In this document: in pieces, positions 21,669 through 40,805 of the stretch
Position numbering within the stretch: position 1 is the stretch's first letter
Layout: every line of letters begins with the position of its first letter
From: an uncultured Faecalicatena sp.
GTDB taxonomy: Bacteria > Bacillota > Clostridia > Lachnospirales > Lachnospiraceae
Assembly (NCBI GenBank): GCA_948468385.1
Contig: CAOKHZ010000003.1
Coordinates: forward strand, 1-64,000
Reading direction: 5' to 3'
Length of the DNA stretch: 64,000 bases
Translations under genes and position numbers: made by a program
Notes under the pieces: model-generated
The model's database searches: none
Told to the model about the DNA's origin: nothing
Seen by the model: only the letters and a program-made list of their open reading frames with translations

Positions 21669-24278
21669 CTACGCGAACATGGACTGCAAATAGCTGCTCT
21701 GGTTGTTCATCTGGGAAATCAGCGTCTCCAACTGCGTGAACTGGGAAATATAGCGATCCGTTTCCGTTTCCAATTTATCAGCCAGCCTGTCAAGGTAATC
21801 GTCAATCTCATCCAACTGCTTTTGCAGGCTGTTTGACAAAACGCTCGTCGGCGCATAGATGGAACCCGCCCGCTCAACCAGGATACCCTTCGTCGCGCCA
21901 GTCATAGAACCATACTTATCCATCACGTTTTTGATGTTGGTAAGCAGGCCGGCCTGAATCTTATTTCCGTTCGCGTCCGTAGACGCTTTCCTGTTCAGCA
22001 AATCCATCACCTCGTCCGGATTCGACTGCAAGGCCGTCTTGAACGCCTCCTCGTCAAGGACGAGCTTACCATTGTCCGAATAGCTCGAGGAAACGGAAAT
22101 GCCAATCCGAGATAACGCGGAACGGTCACCCGAGTTGATGACGGCCCTCAAGTTATCTACCATCAGGCGTAAGTCGGTGTCACCAAACAAAAGGCCTTCC
22201 TTTGCTTTCGCCTCCCACTTCTCGATTTCGGATTCGGACAAGTCTTCCTTCTGCGCGTCGGTCAGCGGGAAATAATCCCGATCGGGCTTGGTCTTGCACT
22301 CCGTATTGACAAGCTCCAAAATCTCGTTAAACGCGTCAACCATCGAACGGACGGCCTCCACGGCCTTCTCGGTATCAACGGTGGCATTGAAAGTAATCTC
22401 CTCAACATTTTTGCTCTTGATTGGCTCATTCGTGCCAGGATCAATTTTCATATTGCCGTCTTCATCCTTCTCGTACCCGAATGTCCCTTTCAGCGTAACA
22501 TTCAGGCCGTCCATGGAAAACGTATTGCTGCCACGGGTAATCTCCACCTCGTCCTCGGACCCCGGATACTTCACGCTTAAGACTGCGTCCTGGCCGGCGG
22601 TATAGACGTTTTTCACAACGTCCTTATCTCCATCCTCATCTCCCTTTGTCCCAAATAGAAGCCTTGCGATGTTTCCATTCGCGCTGATTGCATTCCCGTC
22701 CGCATCCGTTACGCCCGCAGTACTAAAGTCAATCTCCCCGCTCGCGCCGCTGTCCGTGGCGGTCAAGACAAATCGGTCGGACATGGCCTGATACTCAACC
22801 TTCACACCGATGCCCGCAGTGTTGTTAATCTTGCTTATAATATCGTTAATCGTGGAATCCTTGTTAATGCCCTCCACCCTTTTGCCGTTAATCACGAGAT
22901 TATAATCACCGTTACTATCCATGAACTTCTTATATGCCGAACTCGCATTAGCCGGATCTTCAGACTCTTCCATCAACTTTCTAAACTTTTCACCGTTTAC
23001 CAATCCCGCCTCCGCAAGATTTGCCGACAAATTTACCCGATTGGAAACGCCCGCCTTTACATCAAACACGCCGCTGTGTCCCAAGATGCCTTCACCCGCC
23101 GTCATGGAAAGCGTGGAAGACCCGTCAGGATCGCCATTCGGCTTCGTGGTCGTGAAAGAAAACTTCACGTCGGTCGGAGAACCTATAACATTACCATTTT
23201 TATCAAGTAACGACTTACCAGCAGTATCCGTCAAATCAACATTGACACGTCCCTTTCCAAACGCCTCGTCCAGCTTGCTTTGCAAGTCCTTCCGCACGTC
23301 GTTCATGGTCATCCCGCTGTCAAATTTTCCCAACGTAATCCACTTCGTCGTGCCATTATAGGCAAACGCAATCTGCTTCTCGCTTAGCTGCTGCGCCAAG
23401 GTCTGCTCTTCCGTCAGCTTCGCATTATTATCCGCAGTCAATCCGTCAGCCGTAATGGTCTTCTCCTCGTCCGACCAATCGTCCAAATCCTCGCCCTTCG
23501 TCAAAAAGCCCAAATCCTGCAGAATGTCGCCAGTACCACCGGCCAACATCACGCTGTTGCCATGAGCAGAATTTTCACTCTTCAACTGGAACGTGACGCG
23601 CTTGGTCGTATCATCATACTTTGCCTCCATCACGTCCGCCAACGTTTCCTTGTTCGAACCGCTGCCGATATTAACCGTCTCCAGTTGTTTGTTTAGCGCC
23701 TCGATCGCTCCCTCGGGAGTACTGTAATCATACTCCTCCTTATCTTCCATTCTTATGCTATAAAGGTCTTTTCCATATTTGATGTACAAGCTGTTGCCAA
23801 CTATCGTGCTTACGTTCGTCTTCGTATCCAGTTTGTTGGACATCTCCCCAGTGGACATCTTACCCGTCGACACGTCACTCGCCGTCATGCTGGCGTTTCT
23901 CGCCAACTGCTTGATTCTCGCGATGGACATGTTCTCCGCCGATGCCGCCGTGCCGGACACGGACACGTACTTGCTGTTCTCGCCAAGCGCGGTAATCTGG
24001 TTCCTGGAAAACAGCTTCGTGGAAGTCAGGTTCTTCGCTGAAGCGTAAGACGTGAAATCCGTCGTAAAGTTATATATCTTGCTCGTAATGTTCCGAATAG
24101 CGGCCTGCGTCCACTCAATCTTCGTCTGCTTCTGCTTCTGCGCGGCAATCTTGCTCTGCGTGCCGGCCGTCATCTGCTCAATCAGCGTGTCACGGTCAAG
24201 GCCGCTGGCCAAACCGCCGTACCCCCTGATAGAAGACAAACTGCTTGAAAGACTCTGGTTGTTAGATACTGATGCCAT
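21669..24278 (-). CDS. fliD: Flagellar cap protein FliD (HAP2), long form
   Basis: Caps the filament and directs flagellin insertion. The N-terminus has the FliD pattern G-L-A-S-G-L-D-x-D-T-L-I-E-Q-M and the C-terminal coiled coil ends with the expected S-Q-L-E-T-L-I-S-Q-M-N-N-Q-S-S-Y-L. At 869 residues it is much longer than the common 470-670; the extra mass lies in the surface domains between about residues 130 and 640, which hold Asp/Gly/Lys-rich repeats. A sigma-28 promoter precedes it with a leader of about 160 bases. Large variable domains are typical of surface-exposed cap proteins. Confidence 0.95.
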   Translation of the reverse strand: MASVSNNQSLSSSLSSIRGYGGLASGLDRDTLIEQMTAGTQSKIAAQKQKQTKIEWTQAAIRNITSKIYNFTTDFTSYASAKNLTSTKLFSRNQITALGENSKYVSVSGTAASAENMSIARIKQLARNASMTASDVSTGKMSTGEMSNKLDTKTNVSTIVGNSLYIKYGKDLYSIRMEDKEEYDYSTPEGAIEALNKQLETVNIGSGSNKETLADVMEAKYDDTTKRVTFQLKSENSAHGNSVMLAGGTGDILQDLGFLTKGEDLDDWSDEEKTITADGLTADNNAKLTEEQTLAQQLSEKQIAFAYNGTTKWITLGKFDSGMTMNDVRKDLQSKLDEAFGKGRVNVDLTDTAGKSLLDKNGNVIGSPTDVKFSFTTTKPNGDPDGSSTLSMTAGEGILGHSGVFDVKAGVSNRVNLSANLAEAGLVNGEKFRKLMEESEDPANASSAYKKFMDSNGDYNLVINGKRVEGINKDSTINDIISKINNTAGIGVKVEYQAMSDRFVLTATDSGASGEIDFSTAGVTDADGNAISANGNIARLLFGTKGDEDGDKDVVKNVYTAGQDAVLSVKYPGSEDEVEITRGSNTFSMDGLNVTLKGTFGYEKDEDGNMKIDPGTNEPIKSKNVEEITFNATVDTEKAVEAVRSMVDAFNEILELVNTECKTKPDRDYFPLTDAQKEDLSESEIEKWEAKAKEGLLFGDTDLRLMVDNLRAVINSGDRSALSRIGISVSSSYSDNGKLVLDEEAFKTALQSNPDEVMDLLNRKASTDANGNKIQAGLLTNIKNVMDKYGSMTGATKGILVERAGSIYAPTSVLSNSLQKQLDEIDDYLDRLADKLETETDRYISQFTQLETLISQMNNQSSYLQSMFA

Positions 24279-24444: not shown

Positions 24445-24471
24445 TTATCGGCACGGTTTGATAATAAGTTA
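24445..24471 (-). promoter_or_regulatory. Sigma-28 promoter of fliD
   Basis: Minus strand TAAC (24468-24471), 15-base spacer, GCCGATAA (24445-24452). Only one base in each box differs from TAAA and GCCGATAT. It lies directly downstream of the terminator of the comFB gene, where a new transcript should begin. Confidence 0.8.
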
Positions 24472-24480
24472 AGCTTTCTG

Positions 24481-24529
24481 CAAAAAAAGTAGGCATGGAT
24501 TCCTCCCTTTAAAGGGTACCATGCCTACT
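24481..24529 (-). terminator. Rho-independent terminator after the comFB-like gene
   Basis: AGTAGGCATGG (24488-24498) pairs perfectly with CCATGCCTACT (24519-24529); a second CCCTTTAAAGGG palindrome lies in the loop. On the minus strand the stem is followed by seven T residues. It ends the cheV-EAL/HDOD-parA-comFB transcript 83 bases beyond the last stop codon. Confidence 0.93.
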
Positions 24530-24611: not shown

Positions 24612-25457
24612 TCAATCCCTATCGTGATGTGGATGCTGTTTTACCTTCGTGCAAGCTTTCGTAATCTCCACCGTGATTTGTGCCGCATAATGCTGACGGT
24701 AGAAATTGAGAAGTGGCGTTTCCGCGTTCTTGTTCACCACCACATATTTCGGTGGCAAATGTATCAATGCAAGTGCGGTCGTGTCCGCAATACACCTCGA
24801 ACAAGAACAATTTCCAAACTCTGCCATATACTCTCCTACCCTCTCCTTGACGAGCTTGCCCATCACGTTGACGAACACATAGTCTGCATCCTCCTCGTCA
24901 TCCATCTCCAGTTCGGACATTGCCACGATGACCGAATTTGCCTCATTTGGTTCTGCCATGACAGAAGACGTATTTGCTTTTGCCGTCTCTGCCTCCGATG
25001 TTGGCGCCGCTTCCAGCTCCTCCGTTACCATGGCCTCAGCCGCTTCCGCAGGTGCCACTGATGCCTCCGTCCCAATCAGTTCTGACTCCTTCGCAACCGC
25101 TTCCGGTAACTCCACGTTCCCGGACACCGATGCCTCAACCGTCGTCTCCGGCTCCTCCTCTGCGATTTGTGCCGCTGGCTCCTCGCCCTTTGTCGGTTCT
25201 TCCGTCGCCGGCTCCGCTGCGGCGACTTCCACGCCTGCGTTTTCCAATGCTTCGCTTTCTTCAAGTTCTTCCTCGAGAAGGCGGTTCACCTCGTTCGCTA
25301 TGAGGTCTTCATCTTCCTGAGAATCAATCACTTGCACATTGCTGCCTGCCAATTCCCCTTTTCCGGCATTGGTTCTCTTCGCGGACTCCTCTTCCATCTC
25401 CGGACTGCCTGCCAGCAGGTTTAAAACATGATCCGTCTTGTTCGTCTTTTTAGCCAT
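24612..25457 (-). CDS. ComFB-domain protein with acidic linker
   Basis: The C-terminal roughly 90 residues are a ComFB domain (late competence development family): V-N-V-M-G-K-L-V-K-E-R-V, then C-S-C-S-R-C, then D-T-T-A-L-A-L-I-x-L-P-P-K-Y. The N-terminal 190 residues are Glu/Ala/Ser/Val-rich and look disordered, after a short basic start. ComFB proteins were named from a Bacillus competence locus; I recall more recent reports of cyclic-dinucleotide binding in cyanobacterial members, which should be verified. Start 25457 has GGGGG 8 bases upstream and overlaps the parA stop by 8 bases. A strong terminator follows. Total 281 residues. Confidence 0.85.
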   Translation of the reverse strand: MAKKTNKTDHVLNLLAGSPEMEEESAKRTNAGKGELAGSNVQVIDSQEDEDLIANEVNRLLEEELEESEALENAGVEVAAAEPATEEPTKGEEPAAQIAEEEPETTVEASVSGNVELPEAVAKESELIGTEASVAPAEAAEAMVTEELEAAPTSEAETAKANTSSVMAEPNEANSVIVAMSELEMDDEEDADYVFVNVMGKLVKERVGEYMAEFGNCSCSRCIADTTALALIHLPPKYVVVNKNAETPLLNFYRQHYAAQITVEITKACTKVKQHPHHDRD

Positions 25458-26229
25458 GCTTTCTTCCCCCTTCAACGATTTGCAGAACCTCTTCCACAAA
25501 CGCCTCGTAATCTCTCGCAGGATTGGACCTTGGAGAATACTCAAAAATATTCTCGCCATGAGCCGGTGCTTCGGCTGCCGCCACTCCGTTTCGAATCACG
25601 CTCCCAAACACCTTCGTACCCAGCTGCTTGGCTACCGTCTCCACCATTTCCTGCACGTCATGTGACAAGTTACGTCTTTTTTCGTATTTTGTAAGTATGA
25701 TTCCCATAATCTTCAGGTTCGGGTTGACCGACTGTTTAATCGTCTCATAAGTCTCTTTCAGTTGAACTAACCCCATCAAACTCAGAATCTCCGTCGCCAT
25801 CGGTATGATAAGGTAATCTGCCGCGCTATACCCGTTAAGTGTCAGCACGTTAAATGCAGGCGGCGTGTCAATGATAACGTAGTCATACATTCTCTCTACC
25901 GGATCGAGCAGATTCTTTAAAAGCATCTCCCGCTTTTCCCCACGGAAAGTCGCCTCCGCGCCACTCAAGAGAATGTTGGAACGAATGATGTCAATGTCTT
26001 TAATCCGCTTAATCGCATCATAAACCGTAACCTTCCCCCGCAGCGCGTCATAAATCGTCGGCCCCTCATCGATGTCCGCCCCAAGGCTGAATCCCAAATT
26101 CCCTTGCGGATCCATGTCCACGGCAAGCACCTTCCTGCCCTTTCTTGCAAGTCCCGCTGCAAGAGAGGCAGACGTCGTGGTCTTCCCGACCCCGCCTTTC
26201 TGGTTCGTCAAAACAATTGTATGCGCCAC
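25450..26229 (-). CDS. ParA/Soj-family ATPase (orphan, chemotaxis-linked)
   Basis: A 259-residue deviant-Walker ATPase with N-Q-K-G-G-V-G-K-T-T-T near residue 9, V-D-M-D-P-Q-G-N near 39, and Y-V-I-I-D-T-P-P near 122. Such proteins move plasmids, chromosomes or protein clusters. No ParB or parS is visible. The GTG at 26229 is used because AAGGGGG ends 9 bases upstream; an ATG three codons earlier abuts that site. Flanked by EAL/HDOD and ComFB genes in one apparent operon with cheV, it may position chemoreceptor arrays, as ParC and PpfA do elsewhere. It lacks the FlhG N-terminal motif, so it is unlikely to be FlhG. Confidence 0.88.
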   Translation of the reverse strand: MAHTIVLTNQKGGVGKTTTSASLAAGLARKGRKVLAVDMDPQGNLGFSLGADIDEGPTIYDALRGKVTVYDAIKRIKDIDIIRSNILLSGAEATFRGEKREMLLKNLLDPVERMYDYVIIDTPPAFNVLTLNGYSAADYLIIPMATEILSLMGLVQLKETYETIKQSVNPNLKIMGIILTKYEKRRNLSHDVQEMVETVAKQLGTKVFGSVIRNGVAAAEAPAHGENIFEYSPRSNPARDYEAFVEEVLQIVEGGRKHG

Positions 26230-26322
26230 GCTTATCATCCCCCTTCTTATAAGAGACCGTCCTTCACCGCCACTTGCAACCGGGTCACGCATAGTGGCTG
26301 CATTTGGCCATGCAAGTCCCTA

Positions 26323-27570
26323 TTATCCTTCCACGTCCGTCATCAGATTATTCCATGTATTGTTGACTTCTTCCACGCAATCCACGTAAATCTGCGCCAA
26401 CTGCTTGCTAGGGATGCCAAGCTCTTCCGCCAACTCCTTGCTGCCTTTCCAATCAGCATGCTCATAGGAAATCACGAGCTGCTGCACCTTGCCCGGAATC
26501 CCTTCTCCGGTAAGGAGTCCCACCTTTACCTCTTCCGGTACCGGAATCTCTTCCAACAATTCCTTAAGCGGGGCGTTCACCATATAATCCAGCGTGGAAA
26601 ACATGCCCATCATGTATGCGTCAGACGCGGCGAACGACCTCTTGTCAGGAAGCATGCCCGCAATCTCAGAAGCAAGCTTCGCCCGCAAAAACGATATTTT
26701 CAAAAGTTCTTCCGAACCAGGGTTCTCCTCCTGGTCAAAGCTCAACATGTACACCCAGTGCCGAAGTTGCCCGATTCCCAGCGTGACCAGTGCCTGACGA
26801 ATCGAGGCGGTACGCGTACGAAGGGCAAAATACGCGGAATTGACCAATTTAAGAAGTTGGTATGTAAGGCCGGCATCACGGCTGATAATCTCCTCCACCT
26901 CTATAAAGTCCGGCTCATCCTTCGATACGGCGACCATCAGTTGGAAGAAATTCCCCTGCATGTACTCCACCTTATCCACCTTGGACACGAGCGTGTTCGC
27001 CACATAACTGCCTTCCAAATAGTCTACACCCAGCTCGATTGCAGAATTATATGCTTCCTCCGTGTCCACCGCGGTAGCAATGCACTTCTTTCCAAATCCT
27101 CTTGCCATCTGGATAATGTTCACCGCGGTCTTCTGTTTCGGACTGCCGGGCGCATATTCCGCCATGCTAATCCGGATATACGTGGCATAATCCAACATGC
27201 TGAAATACTTCGGCGAAAACTGGAAGTCATTAATCGCAAACTGGTATCCGTTATCACAATACTTCTTGATAATCGGCATCGCCAAGGGATGGATAATCAC
27301 GGTATCCTCGATTTGAATGACAATTTTCTCCTGCCCAAACATCTTGGGCGTGTTGCGAAGCAAAAGTGACGGCGTAAACGTCACGAACATGGGCTTATCA
27401 TTGATAATCTTCGCGCTGTTTGACAACAAAAAATTGGAAATCGTGTCCGCCGCCGAAGTCTCGTTATTATTATATAGGCTGTCCTTGCCCCCCTGAAAGA
27501 GCAATTCATATCCTATAATCCGCTCTTCCTTTATATCTTTAATTGCCTGTCTTACTACGCATCTATCCAT
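26323..27570 (-). CDS. EAL-HDOD two-domain signalling protein (YuxH-like)
   Basis: The N-terminal roughly 195 residues form an EAL fold, but the signature is degenerate: Y-E-L-L replaces E-A-L and I-N-D-F replaces D-D-F-G, so c-di-GMP hydrolysis is unlikely. The C-terminal part, about 200-400, is an HDOD domain (S-R-D-A-G-L-T-Y-Q-L-L-K-L-V-N-S-A-Y). The architecture matches Bacillus YuxH and Vibrio CdgJ-like motility regulators. 415 residues. Its ATG lies in TAATG, overlapping the cheV stop, so it is coupled to cheV. It could sense c-di-GMP without cleaving it, or act as a scaffold. Confidence 0.9.
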   Translation of the reverse strand: MDRCVVRQAIKDIKEERIIGYELLFQGGKDSLYNNNETSAADTISNFLLSNSAKIINDKPMFVTFTPSLLLRNTPKMFGQEKIVIQIEDTVIIHPLAMPIIKKYCDNGYQFAINDFQFSPKYFSMLDYATYIRISMAEYAPGSPKQKTAVNIIQMARGFGKKCIATAVDTEEAYNSAIELGVDYLEGSYVANTLVSKVDKVEYMQGNFFQLMVAVSKDEPDFIEVEEIISRDAGLTYQLLKLVNSAYFALRTRTASIRQALVTLGIGQLRHWVYMLSFDQEENPGSEELLKISFLRAKLASEIAGMLPDKRSFAASDAYMMGMFSTLDYMVNAPLKELLEEIPVPEEVKVGLLTGEGIPGKVQQLVISYEHADWKGSKELAEELGIPSKQLAQIYVDCVEEVNNTWNNLMTDVEG

Positions 27571-28487
27571 TATTCTTCTTTTCCCTTTGCCAATAATTCG
27601 TCCATAACAGTTACAAGATGTCCAATCTCCGGCTTGGAGAGTTGTTCATCGGCACCGATTTCCCTTCCCTTGATTTCCATCTCCGGACTAATTAAAGATG
27701 AAAAGATAATGAGCGGAATCTGCTTTAATTTCTCATCCGACTTCACTAGCTTGGTCAGCCTATGCCCGTCCATCTTGGGCATTTCGATATCGGTAATAAT
27801 CAGGCTCGCCCTATCTAACAAATCTTCGGAATCCCTGATGGAGGAAAGGTAGCTCCACGCTTCCTGACCGTTGTTAAACTGTATCAGGTTCTCGTATCCG
27901 GCCTGATGCAGCGCCTGCTCAACCATCTTAGTCAAAAGCACGGAATCCTCCACGCAGATAATCCTGCTGTCATTCTTTGGACGTACGCCAAGCGCATCGA
28001 TTTCTTCCAACTGAATGCCGGTTTCCGGAGCAATCTCGGCGACAATTTTCTCGAAGTCCAGTATCGTCACGAGTTGTCCCTTGCATTGCGCGATTCCCGT
28101 CGCGATTCCTTCCGCGCCGCGGTTTAACGTCTTGTCCGGCTTCTGAATATCGTTCCATGAGATTCTCTGAATCCCCACCACGGTCTGTACACGGAACGCG
28201 ATGTTCATCTTATTGAAATTCGTGATTACGAACAAATCCTTCTGCCCCGTCTCCGTCGGCCTGCCGCTCAAATAGAATGGCAAATCCACCACGGTAAGCA
28301 TCGTGTCACGCGGCTTGAAAATCCCTTCCACCGCTGAATGCGCGTGCGGCATTGGCTTCACCTTGTCGCTCATCATGATTTCCTTAACCTTCGCCACGTT
28401 GATGCCGTACAATTCGTCGTAAATCGTAAATTCCATAATCTCAATTTCATTTGTACCGGACTCTAAAAGTATCTCTGTATTTGCCAT
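27570..28487 (-). CDS. cheV: Chemotaxis coupling protein CheV (CheW-receiver)
   Basis: A 305-residue fusion of a CheW-like domain (about 10-165) and a response-regulator receiver (about 175-300) with V-E-D-S at its start, I-I-T-D-I-E-M-P carrying the phospho-Asp, and the Lys in L-S-K-P-E. It couples receptors to CheA and takes part in adaptation. It heads a four-gene set with EAL/HDOD, ParA and ComFB genes behind a sigma-28 promoter at 28563-28588. Confidence 0.96.
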   Translation of the reverse strand: MANTEILLESGTNEIEIMEFTIYDELYGINVAKVKEIMMSDKVKPMPHAHSAVEGIFKPRDTMLTVVDLPFYLSGRPTETGQKDLFVITNFNKMNIAFRVQTVVGIQRISWNDIQKPDKTLNRGAEGIATGIAQCKGQLVTILDFEKIVAEIAPETGIQLEEIDALGVRPKNDSRIICVEDSVLLTKMVEQALHQAGYENLIQFNNGQEAWSYLSSIRDSEDLLDRASLIITDIEMPKMDGHRLTKLVKSDEKLKQIPLIIFSSLISPEMEIKGREIGADEQLSKPEIGHLVTVMDELLAKGKEE

Positions 28488-28562
28488 AACACGCCATCCC
28501 TTCTTCTGCTATAATTGCCACGACTTATGGGCCGCGGGCCGTAACTCATAATCCTAATTTAT

Positions 28563-28588
28563 ATATCGGCAAAGATTCCCATTTTCTA
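28563..28588 (-). promoter_or_regulatory. Sigma-28 promoter of the cheV operon
   Basis: Minus strand TAGA (28585-28588), 14-base spacer, GCCGATAT (28563-28570), a perfect -10 box. The following sequence ATAAATTA is shared with a site upstream of cheA (59687 onward). It lies between cheD and cheV, 76 bases before the cheV start. Confidence 0.78.
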
Positions 28589-32135: not shown

Positions 32136-32171
32136 AAATACTTACGCCTCCTCCCCGCCTATATTCCAACG

Positions 32172-37480: not shown

Positions 37481-38845
37481 CTACATTATGTCCGTAATAC
37501 GGATACCAAAATTATCATCCACTACCACGACGTCACCCTTGGCGATGCATTGGCCATTGACAAACAAATCCACTTGCTCGCCCGCAAGCTTGTCAAGTAC
37601 GACCAGGGAACCTTTGTTCAACTCCAGAATATCCTTGACTAATTTTCTGGTTCTGCCGATTTCCACGGAAACTTCCATTGGAACATCGAGCATCATGTCC
37701 AAATTGTCCTCTGGAGATCCCTTACCCTCTTCGGATGTCAGGTTCGGCTGTGCCGCCGTATGCACTTTCAGCTTCTTAGGAGCGGCTTCACGAATCTGCT
37801 GTTGCTGCAATTCCAAAGATTTACGCATCATGTCCATCATCTGCAACATGCTGTTCATCATCGTCGGATCCACCGCCGGCTGCGCGTACATGACTTGTGG
37901 CTGTCCCGCTTGTCCTTGTGGCATCGGTGGCACGGCTTGTGACATCGGTGCACTCTGCCCTTGTATAGCTTGTGATACCGGTTGCGGCGTATTGACCGCC
38001 CCGTCCATTCCACCCTGCATCAGACGTTCAATTTCCTCCTGGGACATCGTCCCTCCACCGGAACTTGCCTGCGGTTGCGGCGCGGCCGGCGACCCACTGG
38101 CTACCGCTCCGTCCATTCCGCCTTGCATCAGACGTTCAATTTCCTCCTGGGACATCGTCCCCCCGCTTTCTTGTTGCGGTGCCGGTTGCGGCACGCTTTG
38201 TGCCGGTTGCGGCGCGGCCTGCTGTTTCGACGCTGCTTCGGATCCATGCGACGCTCCGTCTGGGAAGAAGCCCGCCACCAATTCTTTCGCCAGTCCAATC
38301 GGCATCAAATTTAAAAATTCACTCTGCAGCTTATCCATGATGCTCAAATCGAAACCGATGACCACCATACGCTCATTATCCGCAAAATATTTTTCTTTAA
38401 ACTGTTCCGGGCTCTGAATTTCAAAAGAAATCGGGGTGGAAATGTTCACCGTCTTAGACAACAGCTCCGAAAGTGCCGTCGCCGAAGCCCCCATCATCTG
38501 GTTCATGACCTCGCATATTGCGCTGATGTTCATCTCATTCAGCTCAAATTCTTCGTCTGGAACCTCCATGCCCATCAGCATCTCGACGATCACTTTCACG
38601 TCCTGCCTCTTTAACAGCATGATGTTGTTCCCGTCAAGACCCTCCACATAGCCAATCTCCACGCCAACGGCCGGTTCTATGTTATTGAACTCGAATTCAT
38701 CCCGCGCCTTTACCGAAACTACCGGAGTCGTAATGTCAACCCTGGCATCAAGCATCGTTGAAACAGCAGTCGCGGATGCCCCCAGACTGATATTTAGGAT
38801 TTCGCCTATGGCGTCTATTTCCATTGCACTCAAATTATAATCCAT
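37481..38845 (-). CDS. fliY: Flagellar switch phosphatase FliY with duplicated CheY-binding-like motifs
   Basis: A C-ring protein of Gram-positives combining a CheC-type CheY-P phosphatase domain (about 1-200; active-site helices E-I-L-N-I-S-L-G-A-S-A-T and E-V-M-N-Q-M-M-G-A-S-A-T) with a C-terminal SpoA/FliN domain (about 370-454). FliY normally begins with a FliM-like CheY-P-binding peptide. Here the protein starts directly in the CheC domain, and T-M-S-Q-E-E-I-E-R-L-M-Q-G-G-M-D-G-A-V occurs twice in the Pro/Gln/Ala-rich linker near residues 229 and 265. Upstream of ATG 38845 the frame has no start before a stop. 454 residues. Confidence 0.95.
   Translation of the reverse strand: MDYNLSAMEIDAIGEILNISLGASATAVSTMLDARVDITTPVVSVKARDEFEFNNIEPAVGVEIGYVEGLDGNNIMLLKRQDVKVIVEMLMGMEVPDEEFELNEMNISAICEVMNQMMGASATALSELLSKTVNISTPISFEIQSPEQFKEKYFADNERMVVIGFDLSIMDKLQSEFLNLMPIGLAKELVAGFFPDGASHGSEAASKQQAAPQPAQSVPQPAPQQESGGTMSQEEIERLMQGGMDGAVASGSPAAPQPQASSGGGTMSQEEIERLMQGGMDGAVNTPQPVSQAIQGQSAPMSQAVPPMPQGQAGQPQVMYAQPAVDPTMMNSMLQMMDMMRKSLELQQQQIREAAPKKLKVHTAAQPNLTSEEGKGSPEDNLDMMLDVPMEVSVEIGRTRKLVKDILELNKGSLVVLDKLAGEQVDLFVNGQCIAKGDVVVVDDNFGIRITDIM
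38001..38168. repeat. fliY: 108-bp direct duplication in fliY encoding the SQEEIERLM motif
   Basis: Segments starting at 38001 and 38109 share nearly all of about 58 bases, with identical runs over the motif, and are offset by 108 bases (36 codons). The differences are mostly silent, pointing to a retained protein motif. Confidence 0.92.
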
Positions 38846-39758: not shown

Positions 39759-40805
39759 TTAATCCGCTGGTACTTCCTCTGTGAATACCTCTTCCAAAAA
39801 CTGTTCTTCCGTCTCCTCCATCACCTTTTTATTGAGCTTCACTGCAACGTTGTTCTTATATACGCCAAGCTTGCCTTCAAACCACGGCTGATTCGCCACG
39901 TATACCATTACGTCGGAATTCCGGCTCTTGTTCAAATCGATGACGTCATTGACACGCAACCCATAAATGTCCTGGAAACTCAAATGGGCGGTTCCAAGAT
40001 TTACTTTCATCTCCAACTCGGACTCGCGCAGCTTCTCCATCATGATTTCCCTGCTATTCACGATGCCATTGTCATAAGCGCCCTGCACGTCGCGCCGTTT
40101 TTCAATGATTGAGAATATGTTCGTGAGCAAGTTCCCTGGTATGCAAATGTTTATAAAGCCGCTGACGCTCGGCAAGGTCATGTTCAACATGACGATTGCC
40201 ACAGGTTCGTCCAAGCCAATTTCCTGAAACATGCTGGGCGACTGCTCCAAGCGCAAATCATCCACGTCCAACGCCAGGTAATTCTTCCATGAGTCCCGAA
40301 TAGCTCCTGAAAAATACTTTACAAGGCGTCCATAAAGGGCAAGCTCGATGTCGGTATACGTATACTCGAAATCAAGTTCGGTCTCGTTCCCTTCCCCGCC
40401 TAGCATCTGGTCAATCATGTTCACGACCAAAAGCTGGTTAATGTGGAACAAAAGGGGCGGGTTCTTAGAATCATCTGGAAGTTTCAAAAACATCAACTCC
40501 ATGACGTCGTTCTCGCTCAGAGCGTTTCCAAACTCATGATACCGCGTCTCTTCTACCGAAGTCACCTCAATTTCACAGTTCATACGCAAAACTCCGTTCA
40601 ACTGTGACGCGATAATCCTACAATAGTTATCGTATATGCCCTTCAGGATTTTCAGCTTATCCTTGGTAAACTTCTTGGGGCTGTAAAAGTCATAACTCTT
40701 ATATTTTTTTTCTTCTTTTACTTCCTTCTTGTCAGTCTCGGCGTCGCCTCCGCGCATGGAGCTCAACAACATATCTATCTGACTTTGTGATAGTACGTCT
40801 GCCAT
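39759..40805 (-). CDS. fliM: Flagellar switch protein FliM
   Basis: A C-ring protein of 348 residues. The N-terminal CheY-P-binding peptide L-S-Q-S-Q-I-D-M-L-L is at residues 5-14, followed by the CheC-like middle domain and a SpoA domain at the end. It follows motB by 18 bases; fliL, often placed just before fliM, is absent. Confidence 0.97.
   Translation of the reverse strand: MADVLSQSQIDMLLSSMRGGDAETDKKEVKEEKKYKSYDFYSPKKFTKDKLKILKGIYDNYCRIIASQLNGVLRMNCEIEVTSVEETRYHEFGNALSENDVMELMFLKLPDDSKNPPLLFHINQLLVVNMIDQMLGGEGNETELDFEYTYTDIELALYGRLVKYFSGAIRDSWKNYLALDVDDLRLEQSPSMFQEIGLDEPVAIVMLNMTLPSVSGFINICIPGNLLTNIFSIIEKRRDVQGAYDNGIVNSREIMMEKLRESELEMKVNLGTAHLSFQDIYGLRVNDVIDLNKSRNSDVMVYVANQPWFEGKLGVYKNNVAVKLNKKVMEETEEQFLEEVFTEEVPAD

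Follow-up and report, generated by a model that had tools for sequence, protein, structure and literature searches.

A parA-comFB gene pair in flagellar clusters of gut Clostridia: a candidate positioning system in genomes without detectable FlhF and FlhG

A conserved pair in flagellar gene clusters

The window analyzed here, a 64,000-nucleotide stretch from an uncultured Faecalicatena sp. (contig CAOKHZ010000003.1), is a flagellar and chemotaxis gene cluster. Four of its genes, all on the minus strand (28487-24612), had been interpreted in a first-pass annotation as one module of CheV, an EAL/HDOD protein, ParA and ComFB. These four identities are borne out by Pfam matches (Table 1); judged from sequence comparison, the conserved unit is smaller, namely the parA-comFB pair, and CheV and EAL/HDOD are neighbors, not core parts. 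The genomic surroundings make this pair more interesting than had been proposed: it is found instead of the switch by which flagella are usually placed. We consider it an evenly balanced proposition that, in one of the flagellar types found among Lachnospiraceae and their relatives, parA-comFB would serve as a dedicated ParA-partner positioning pair, acting in flagellar placement or number where other types have FlhF, FlhG and YcgR.

The pair was first delimited in a family sample of 250 genomes of the host family, the host genome included. A Pfam search yielded 36 genomes with ComFB, three of which (G031, G104 and G195) have two matches each; G104 and G195 possess a short ComFB in addition to the pair. 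Among 38 ComFB neighborhoods, 20 are situated among flagellar genes, and 19 of these have ParA directly upstream, the exception (L055) being a shortened ComFB with no ParA. None of the 18 neighborhoods outside flagellar genes has a ParA relative among its listed genes. A broader scan covered 84,980 species, each represented by a single genome; it found 126 relatives, and the 80 best were retained. Eight of these loci (L098, L100, L112, L113, L119, L135, L150, L156) lie on the same contigs as family-sample loci, and the two sets are therefore not independent.

The adjacency of ParA and ComFB, which the first-pass annotation had proposed to check across relatives, proved general: ParA lies on the same strand, at most 2.2 kb upstream of the long ComFB, in 78 of the 80 loci. 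The remaining two (L124 and L128) show no ParA, but their ComFB match begins 124 and 107 bases from the contig end, so that all 78 testable loci have it. The gap between parA and comFB ranges from -20 to 172 bases with a median of 1 (75 loci measured). Relative to fliD, the pair is colinear at 23 of the 80 loci and divergent at 48. At the 62 loci with full flanks, some flagellar gene always adjoins the pair; fliD is near in 60, cheV in 43, the EAL/HDOD gene in 33 and a gene for a methyl-accepting chemotaxis protein (MCP) in 20. CheV and EAL/HDOD are facultative neighbors.

A four-gene operon as the conserved unit was rejected after this synteny comparison. We find it very improbable that CheV, EAL/HDOD, ParA and ComFB form one sigma-28-driven module: the four genes do occur as a same-strand string here and in 16 of the 80 loci, and the sigma-28-like site before cheV is kept in close relatives, but EAL/HDOD was not found in 38 of the 80 loci (short contigs counted in) and is convergent in 23, and no outstanding sigma-28 site precedes the divergent parA genes of 48 loci. 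Sigma-28 control as a general trait of the pair was rejected on the same upstream regions. At L065, a chemoreceptor-like (MCP-like) gene and an open reading frame (ORF) of unknown kind occupy the position between cheV and parA that EAL/HDOD has in the window.

Beyond the family, ComFB occurs in 112 of 391 genomes of the class, nearly always as short frames. Four other class genomes have ComFB frames of more than 240 residues, and three of them (G430, G512 and G388) carry parA-comFB beside fliD, with an N-terminal ComFB peptide of the same kind. The fourth, G352, is not of the pair kind; its ComFB frame (L224, 1852-2565) crosses X residues into apparently another protein, with no ParA or flagellar gene adjoining. 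Among the papers listed in a literature search, judged by titles and abstracts and with preprints and most subscription papers outside its scope, none showed a prior description of a ParA-ComFB pair; one listed paper, PMC13249358, mentions ParA, ComFB and c-di-GMP together.

Absence of the standard placement genes

In the family sample, 129 genomes possess FlhA, 105 possess FlhF over the cut-off and 19 possess the pair; no genome has both the pair and FlhF, and all 19 pair genomes have FlhA. The cut-off (174.15 bits) defines this result; weaker matches turn up in all genomes, with or without flagella. Five FlhA genomes contain neither the pair nor an over-cut-off FlhF: G103, whose FlhF reaches 170.5 of 174.15 bits; G174, which has only broken FlhA fragments; G199, which is 70% complete; and G149 and G162. 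In G149 (L087), flgK is preceded by two adjacent flagellin-like genes (recognized by eye) whose first 70 residues are identical. In G162 (L055/L090), the shortened comFB beside fliD lacks the N-terminal peptide and has no accompanying parA, and cheC, cheD, cheV and EAL/HDOD are not there. FlhF over the cut-off is likewise absent from all 23 genomes reached via named pair loci, which include Eisenbergiella tayi, [Clostridium] symbiosum, Anaerotignum and Proteocatella; at least two of them (L098, L150) were already among the 250.

For FlhG, the best match in the 21 FlhF-less genomes (the 19 pair genomes, G149 and G162) has an E-value of 1.7e-21, which is the level of flagellum-less genomes (6.2e-21 in G003, 7.1e-17 in G012), while three of three FlhF genomes reach 1.9e-100 or better. 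The YcgR-type PilZNR domain was matched in none of 20 FlhF-less genomes (the 19 pair genomes and G149) and in 10 of 10 FlhF genomes, other PilZ domains not having been searched. In the three FlhF-type clusters compared (L091-L093), flhA is followed by flhF, flhG, an ORF of 239-246 residues and che genes; this ORF proved to be PilZNR in both tested of the three genomes, G087 and G177.

FlhG is reported to bind residues 1-36 of FliY (available text of PMC12327844). A FliY start peptide of the kind LSQxEI-ALL is present in eight of eight FlhF genomes and in none of 12 pair genomes, our own included, of which G046 has a different FliY-like protein. As a separate observation, the N-terminal motif of FliM (gene at window 39759-40805; L228-L247), a region that also binds CheY, reads QID in all 11 pair genomes with FliM found and EID in eight of eight FlhF genomes.

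Phylogeny of FlhA and RpoB

The FlhA tree (34 rows) unites 18 pair genomes and G149 in one clade against 15 FlhF genomes with a support of 100/100; three pair rows fill less than half of the columns. A long branch separates the two clades, and the family thus has two very different flagellar types. In the RpoB tree, whose 30 rows comprise 19 pair genomes, 10 FlhF genomes and G149, the two kinds of host intermingle, with four label changes, at least two of which are forced by well supported branches; the pair genome G107, for instance, stands beside the FlhF genome G087 (99/92). The pair thus accompanies a flagellar type, one FlhA clade spread over intermingled hosts, which has apparently moved between them, and the topologies suggest an exchange of whole flagellar clusters. 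A more far-reaching proposal, to which we give somewhat less than even weight, is that a nucleoid-riding ParA and a cyclic-dinucleotide-responsive ComFB adaptor would replace FlhF, FlhG and YcgR together in one flagellar type, which would then have moved as a unit between lineages of gut Clostridia.

The ParA ATPase

ParA-type positioning ATPases are described as having the deviant Walker A motif KGGxxK[S/T] (PMC9178275, seen in part), and the pair ParAs display it. In a profile comparison of 18 pair ParAs with solved structures, the best scores belong to ParA 8ray (E 3.2e-64) and Soj 6iub (2.3e-55), against 1.9e-22 for MinD 1ion; by this measure, ParA and Soj are the closest solved relatives. 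The proteins comprise 252-268 residues (72 measured, with starts chosen by script), and Pfam finds no helix-turn-helix (HTH) match in ParA. Arg187 is present in 16 and Arg215 in 17 of the 18; Arg187 aligns with an arginine of Soj 1wcv that we take to be DNA-binding. In a rough ParA tree, the pair ParAs stand apart from FlhG; this tree contains only one Soj, has bootstrap values that are not settled, and shows two ATPases from the own genome, both on long branches, within the pair ParAs. That the pair ParA is a relative of FlhG is supported neither by the FlhG match levels nor by this tree.

The kinship with partition ParAs raises the alternative of a DNA partition pair, for a chromosome, plasmid or island, that only travels in the flagellar island. 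We regard this as extremely unlikely: the own genome possesses a separate ParA-ParB pair (L089), the partner lacks the HTH/CTPase domains of ParB, Pfam detecting ComFB alone, and flagellar genes adjoin the pair at every full-flank locus. Carriage by plasmids or phages was rejected, as no match was found in 72,556 plasmid records (searched with the first 40 residues only) or in 50,697 phage records.

The ComFB protein as candidate partner

By its match to PF10719, its zinc-type cysteines and its fold, the partner belongs to the ComFB/CdgR family; it stays far below the cut-off of the late competence ComFB equivalog (NF052654: 26.8 bits against 120). PF10719 is the sole Pfam match, and no DNA-binding, CheW-like or ParB HTH/CTPase domain was detected. 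Proteins that partner ParA/MinD ATPases make use of an N-terminus that is disordered and positively charged (PMC10241942, consulted in part). The pair has such an arrangement, with an adjacent partner at 78 of 78 testable loci, a basic N-terminal peptide and predicted disorder, and ComFB is likely the partner of ParA via this peptide, in line with the first-pass annotation, which had named ComFB as sensor or partner.

Residues K7, T8, H10, V11 and L14 of the peptide are invariant in 16 aligned members that were found via the C-terminal domain; this alignment leaves out L043, L044 and L047, which have another peptide, and the shortened L055. Conservation of the first ten residues in a larger set of 77 relatives is biased, because these relatives were selected on those residues, a bias of which the 16-member alignment is free. 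The larger set leaves out L111, L137 and L172, whose peptide has HLL instead of HV. Across the 77 relatives, the linker between the N-terminal segments and the ComFB domain consists of 17% E, 15% A and 12% P.

Among the ranked matches listed by Foldseek, the modeled domain finds the ComFB fold, that of receptors for cyclic di-GMP (c-di-GMP) and cyclic di-AMP (c-di-AMP). Cyanobacterial ComFB is reported to bind both nucleotides with micromolar affinity (PMC12313861, in part), and loss of comFB in Bacillus subtilis is said to leave DNA uptake unaffected in the accessible portion of PMC4381287. Five GGDEF matches in the own genome exceed the cut-off, one of them with an internal stop, and c-di-GMP is therefore probably made there.

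Cargo and proposed function

The first-pass annotation had left open whether ParA places chemoreceptor arrays or motors. CheA was searched in 42 pair genomes (one counted twice, L113 = G656 = G107). It is present in 38, weak in G046 and unmatched in G015, G148 and G271 (L171), the first two of which are 99% complete; all three CheA-less genomes have FlhA. No CheA match was obtained for the G149 and G162 genomes either. G655 (L160), which is closely related to the CheA-less L171, has a CheA at the score level of FlhF genomes, possibly a contaminant. The common factor of pair genomes is the flagellum, and the association with a CheA-based array that marks array ParA systems does not hold. Since pair genomes without CheA exist, an array is unlikely as general cargo; arrays as main cargo became less likely after this search, and the flagellum is the favored cargo of the two.

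It appears quite doubtful to us that the pair places or segregates arrays in the way of Vibrio ParC-ParP or Rhodobacter PpfA-TlpT, although CheV and MCP genes are frequent neighbors, L065 even has its MCP-like gene between cheV and parA, and most pair genomes contain CheA. Against it stand the genomes in which CheA is weak or unmatched, the greater constancy of fliD than of cheV (60 vs 43 of 62), and the lack of a CheW-like domain in the partner according to Pfam.

Under the favored reading of a flagellar positioning pair, ATP-bound ParA dimers would sit on the nucleoid, and ComFB would dock to a flagellar component by its C-terminal domain. The N-terminal ComFB peptide would touch ParA and trigger ATP hydrolysis, which would thereby space or count nascent flagella. 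With less confidence, we suppose that c-di-GMP or c-di-AMP on the ComFB domain would tune the system.

Several observations weigh against a positioning role. The mutual exclusion of FlhF and the pair represents one origin, not 19 independent ones, because it falls on a single split of the FlhA tree, and linkage inside the flagellar island could explain the joint transfer; a Fisher test on these genome counts accordingly carries no independent weight. G149, of the same FlhA type, has neither FlhF nor ComFB, and its 19.9 kb retrieved contain no ParA gene. In G162 the shortened ComFB is all that is left, with ParA absent from the 13.7 kb retrieved. The pair can therefore be lost. Furthermore, the group of L043, L044 and L047 has a different N-terminal peptide, G388 deviates at H10, and the helix at residues 8-15 is modeled at low confidence, with a predicted local distance difference test (pLDDT) score of 63-64. 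Flagellation patterns of carriers were not found in the literature listings searched.

The pair could also be a regulatory switch, in which ParA-ATP and ComFB would report the dinucleotide level or the assembly state to late genes or to the motor and so assume the brake role of YcgR. We consider this unlikely, while granting that it would suit the lack of a YcgR-type PilZNR match in all 20 FlhF-less genomes, the receptor fold of ComFB (PMC12313861) and the GGDEF complement of the own genome, and that FlhG, too, is credited with regulatory roles (PMC12826062, both sources in part). For a brake, a ParA ATPase of its own with a partner built like ParB is unnecessary, ComFB has no DNA-binding domain by Pfam, and the PilZ search covered PilZNR.

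The locus in the window

The four-gene stretch is flanked by cheC-cheD on one side and fliD on the other (Table 1). The structural details of the first-pass annotation withstood inspection. The stop of cheV and the start of EAL/HDOD share one base of a TAATG at 27570, comFB and parA overlap by 8 bases (comFB ATG 25457, parA stop 25450), and both a sigma-28-like site before cheV and the terminator after comFB were recovered. The gap from EAL/HDOD to parA is 84 or 93 bases, according to the parA start chosen. The promoter element GCCGATAT by itself is not rare in the window, with five seen against 2.2 expected and as many in 8 of 100 shuffles. EAL/HDOD looks degenerate: aligned to an EAL protein, it has NDF for DDF and arginine for the lysine of YLKI. 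These residues we take to be catalytic, and the EAL domain is probably non-catalytic. Among the flagellar genes of related loci, L051 has a FlgK-like protein of 924 residues, much longer than the 524 residues in the window.

Table 1. Positions of the pair, its predicted segments and neighboring features in the window.
Feature	Position	Strand	Remarks
parA	25450..26238	-	small ParA ATPase; AAA_31 PF13614, E 3.4e-52; start ATG 26238 or GTG 26229
Deviant Walker A KGGVGKTT	26176..26199	-	same eight residues in 18/18 aligned pair ParAs
comFB	24612..25457	-	candidate ParA partner, 281 residues; PF10719, E 4.5e-17
N-terminal basic peptide MAKKTNKTDHVLNLLAG	25407..25457	-	proposed ParA-contacting segment
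Second conserved short segment	25239..25319	-	predicted helix 47-73; pLDDT 84-87 at 51-70; L61 nearly invariant
Acidic Ala/Pro-rich variable linker	24891..25238	-	predicted disordered; pLDDT 41-50 at residues 81-180
ComFB domain with four-cysteine site	24615..24890	-	PF10719, fold match
cheV	27570..28487	-	CheW domain E 2.4e-29, receiver E 3e-16 (Pfam); facultative neighbor, 51/80 related loci
EAL/HDOD gene	26323..27570	-	HDOD E 1.4e-17, EAL E 2.6e-12 (Pfam); facultative neighbor, 42/80 related loci
fliD	21669..24278	-	PF07195, E 1.5e-37; most constant neighbor of the pair
flhA-fliA junction	32136..32171	-	place of flhF and flhG in FlhF-type clusters; empty here, 36 bases
fliY	37481..38845	-	without the N-terminal peptide found in FlhF-type genomes
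Sigma-28-like promoter of cheV	28563..28588	-	TAGA-N14-GCCGATAT; 11/12 positions; equalled by 3/200 dinucleotide shuffles
Intrinsic terminator 3' of comFB	24481..24529	-	surrounding stretch folds at -26 kcal/mol, z -4.1
Sigma-28-like promoter of fliD	24445..24471	-	fliD's own, behind the terminator; matched by 0/200 shuffles

Comparison with known systems

One group of gut Clostridia thus builds flagella without FlhF-FlhG, the FliY peptide and a YcgR-type domain, yet possesses a ParA with an adaptor-shaped partner. The pair resembles the FlhF-FlhG switch (YlxH/FleN/MinD2) in combining a deviant Walker ATPase with a partner among flagellar genes. Its genomes differ in having no over-cut-off FlhF, the GTPase of the signal recognition particle type, and in an ATPase that is ParA-like and not FlhG; on the pair side, the FlhG-bound FliY peptide was not seen, nor were a DQAxxLR start or a membrane-targeting tail visible by eye in the pair ParAs.

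ParC-ParP of Vibrio, which we take to be a chemoreceptor-array system of a ParA-type ATPase and an adaptor with a CheW-like domain, likewise unites such an ATPase with an adaptor in a motility locus. The adaptor of the pair has no CheW-like domain, and the pair is kept in CheA-less genomes.

With ComFB of B. subtilis and CdgR/ComFB of cyanobacteria, the partner shares the ComFB fold, and its cysteines follow the zinc-site pattern reported for the B. subtilis protein (PMC4381287, in part). It differs from both by an N-terminal extension of about 190 residues with the peptide, by the ParA neighbor and by the flagellar setting; among the ComFB papers listed, none links it to ParA in its title or abstract. 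Should the pair prove to place or count flagella, ComFB would get a testable role in Firmicutes.

The general layout is shared with ParA-ParB, McdA-McdB and PpfA-TlpT: a small ParA and an adjacent partner with a basic N-terminal peptide, a disordered linker and a C-terminal domain from a dimeric family. The pair differs from these ParA-partner systems by its ComFB partner domain and its apparent flagellar cargo, and would, if that role is true, add to the ParA systems one whose adaptor domain is new and might respond to a second messenger.

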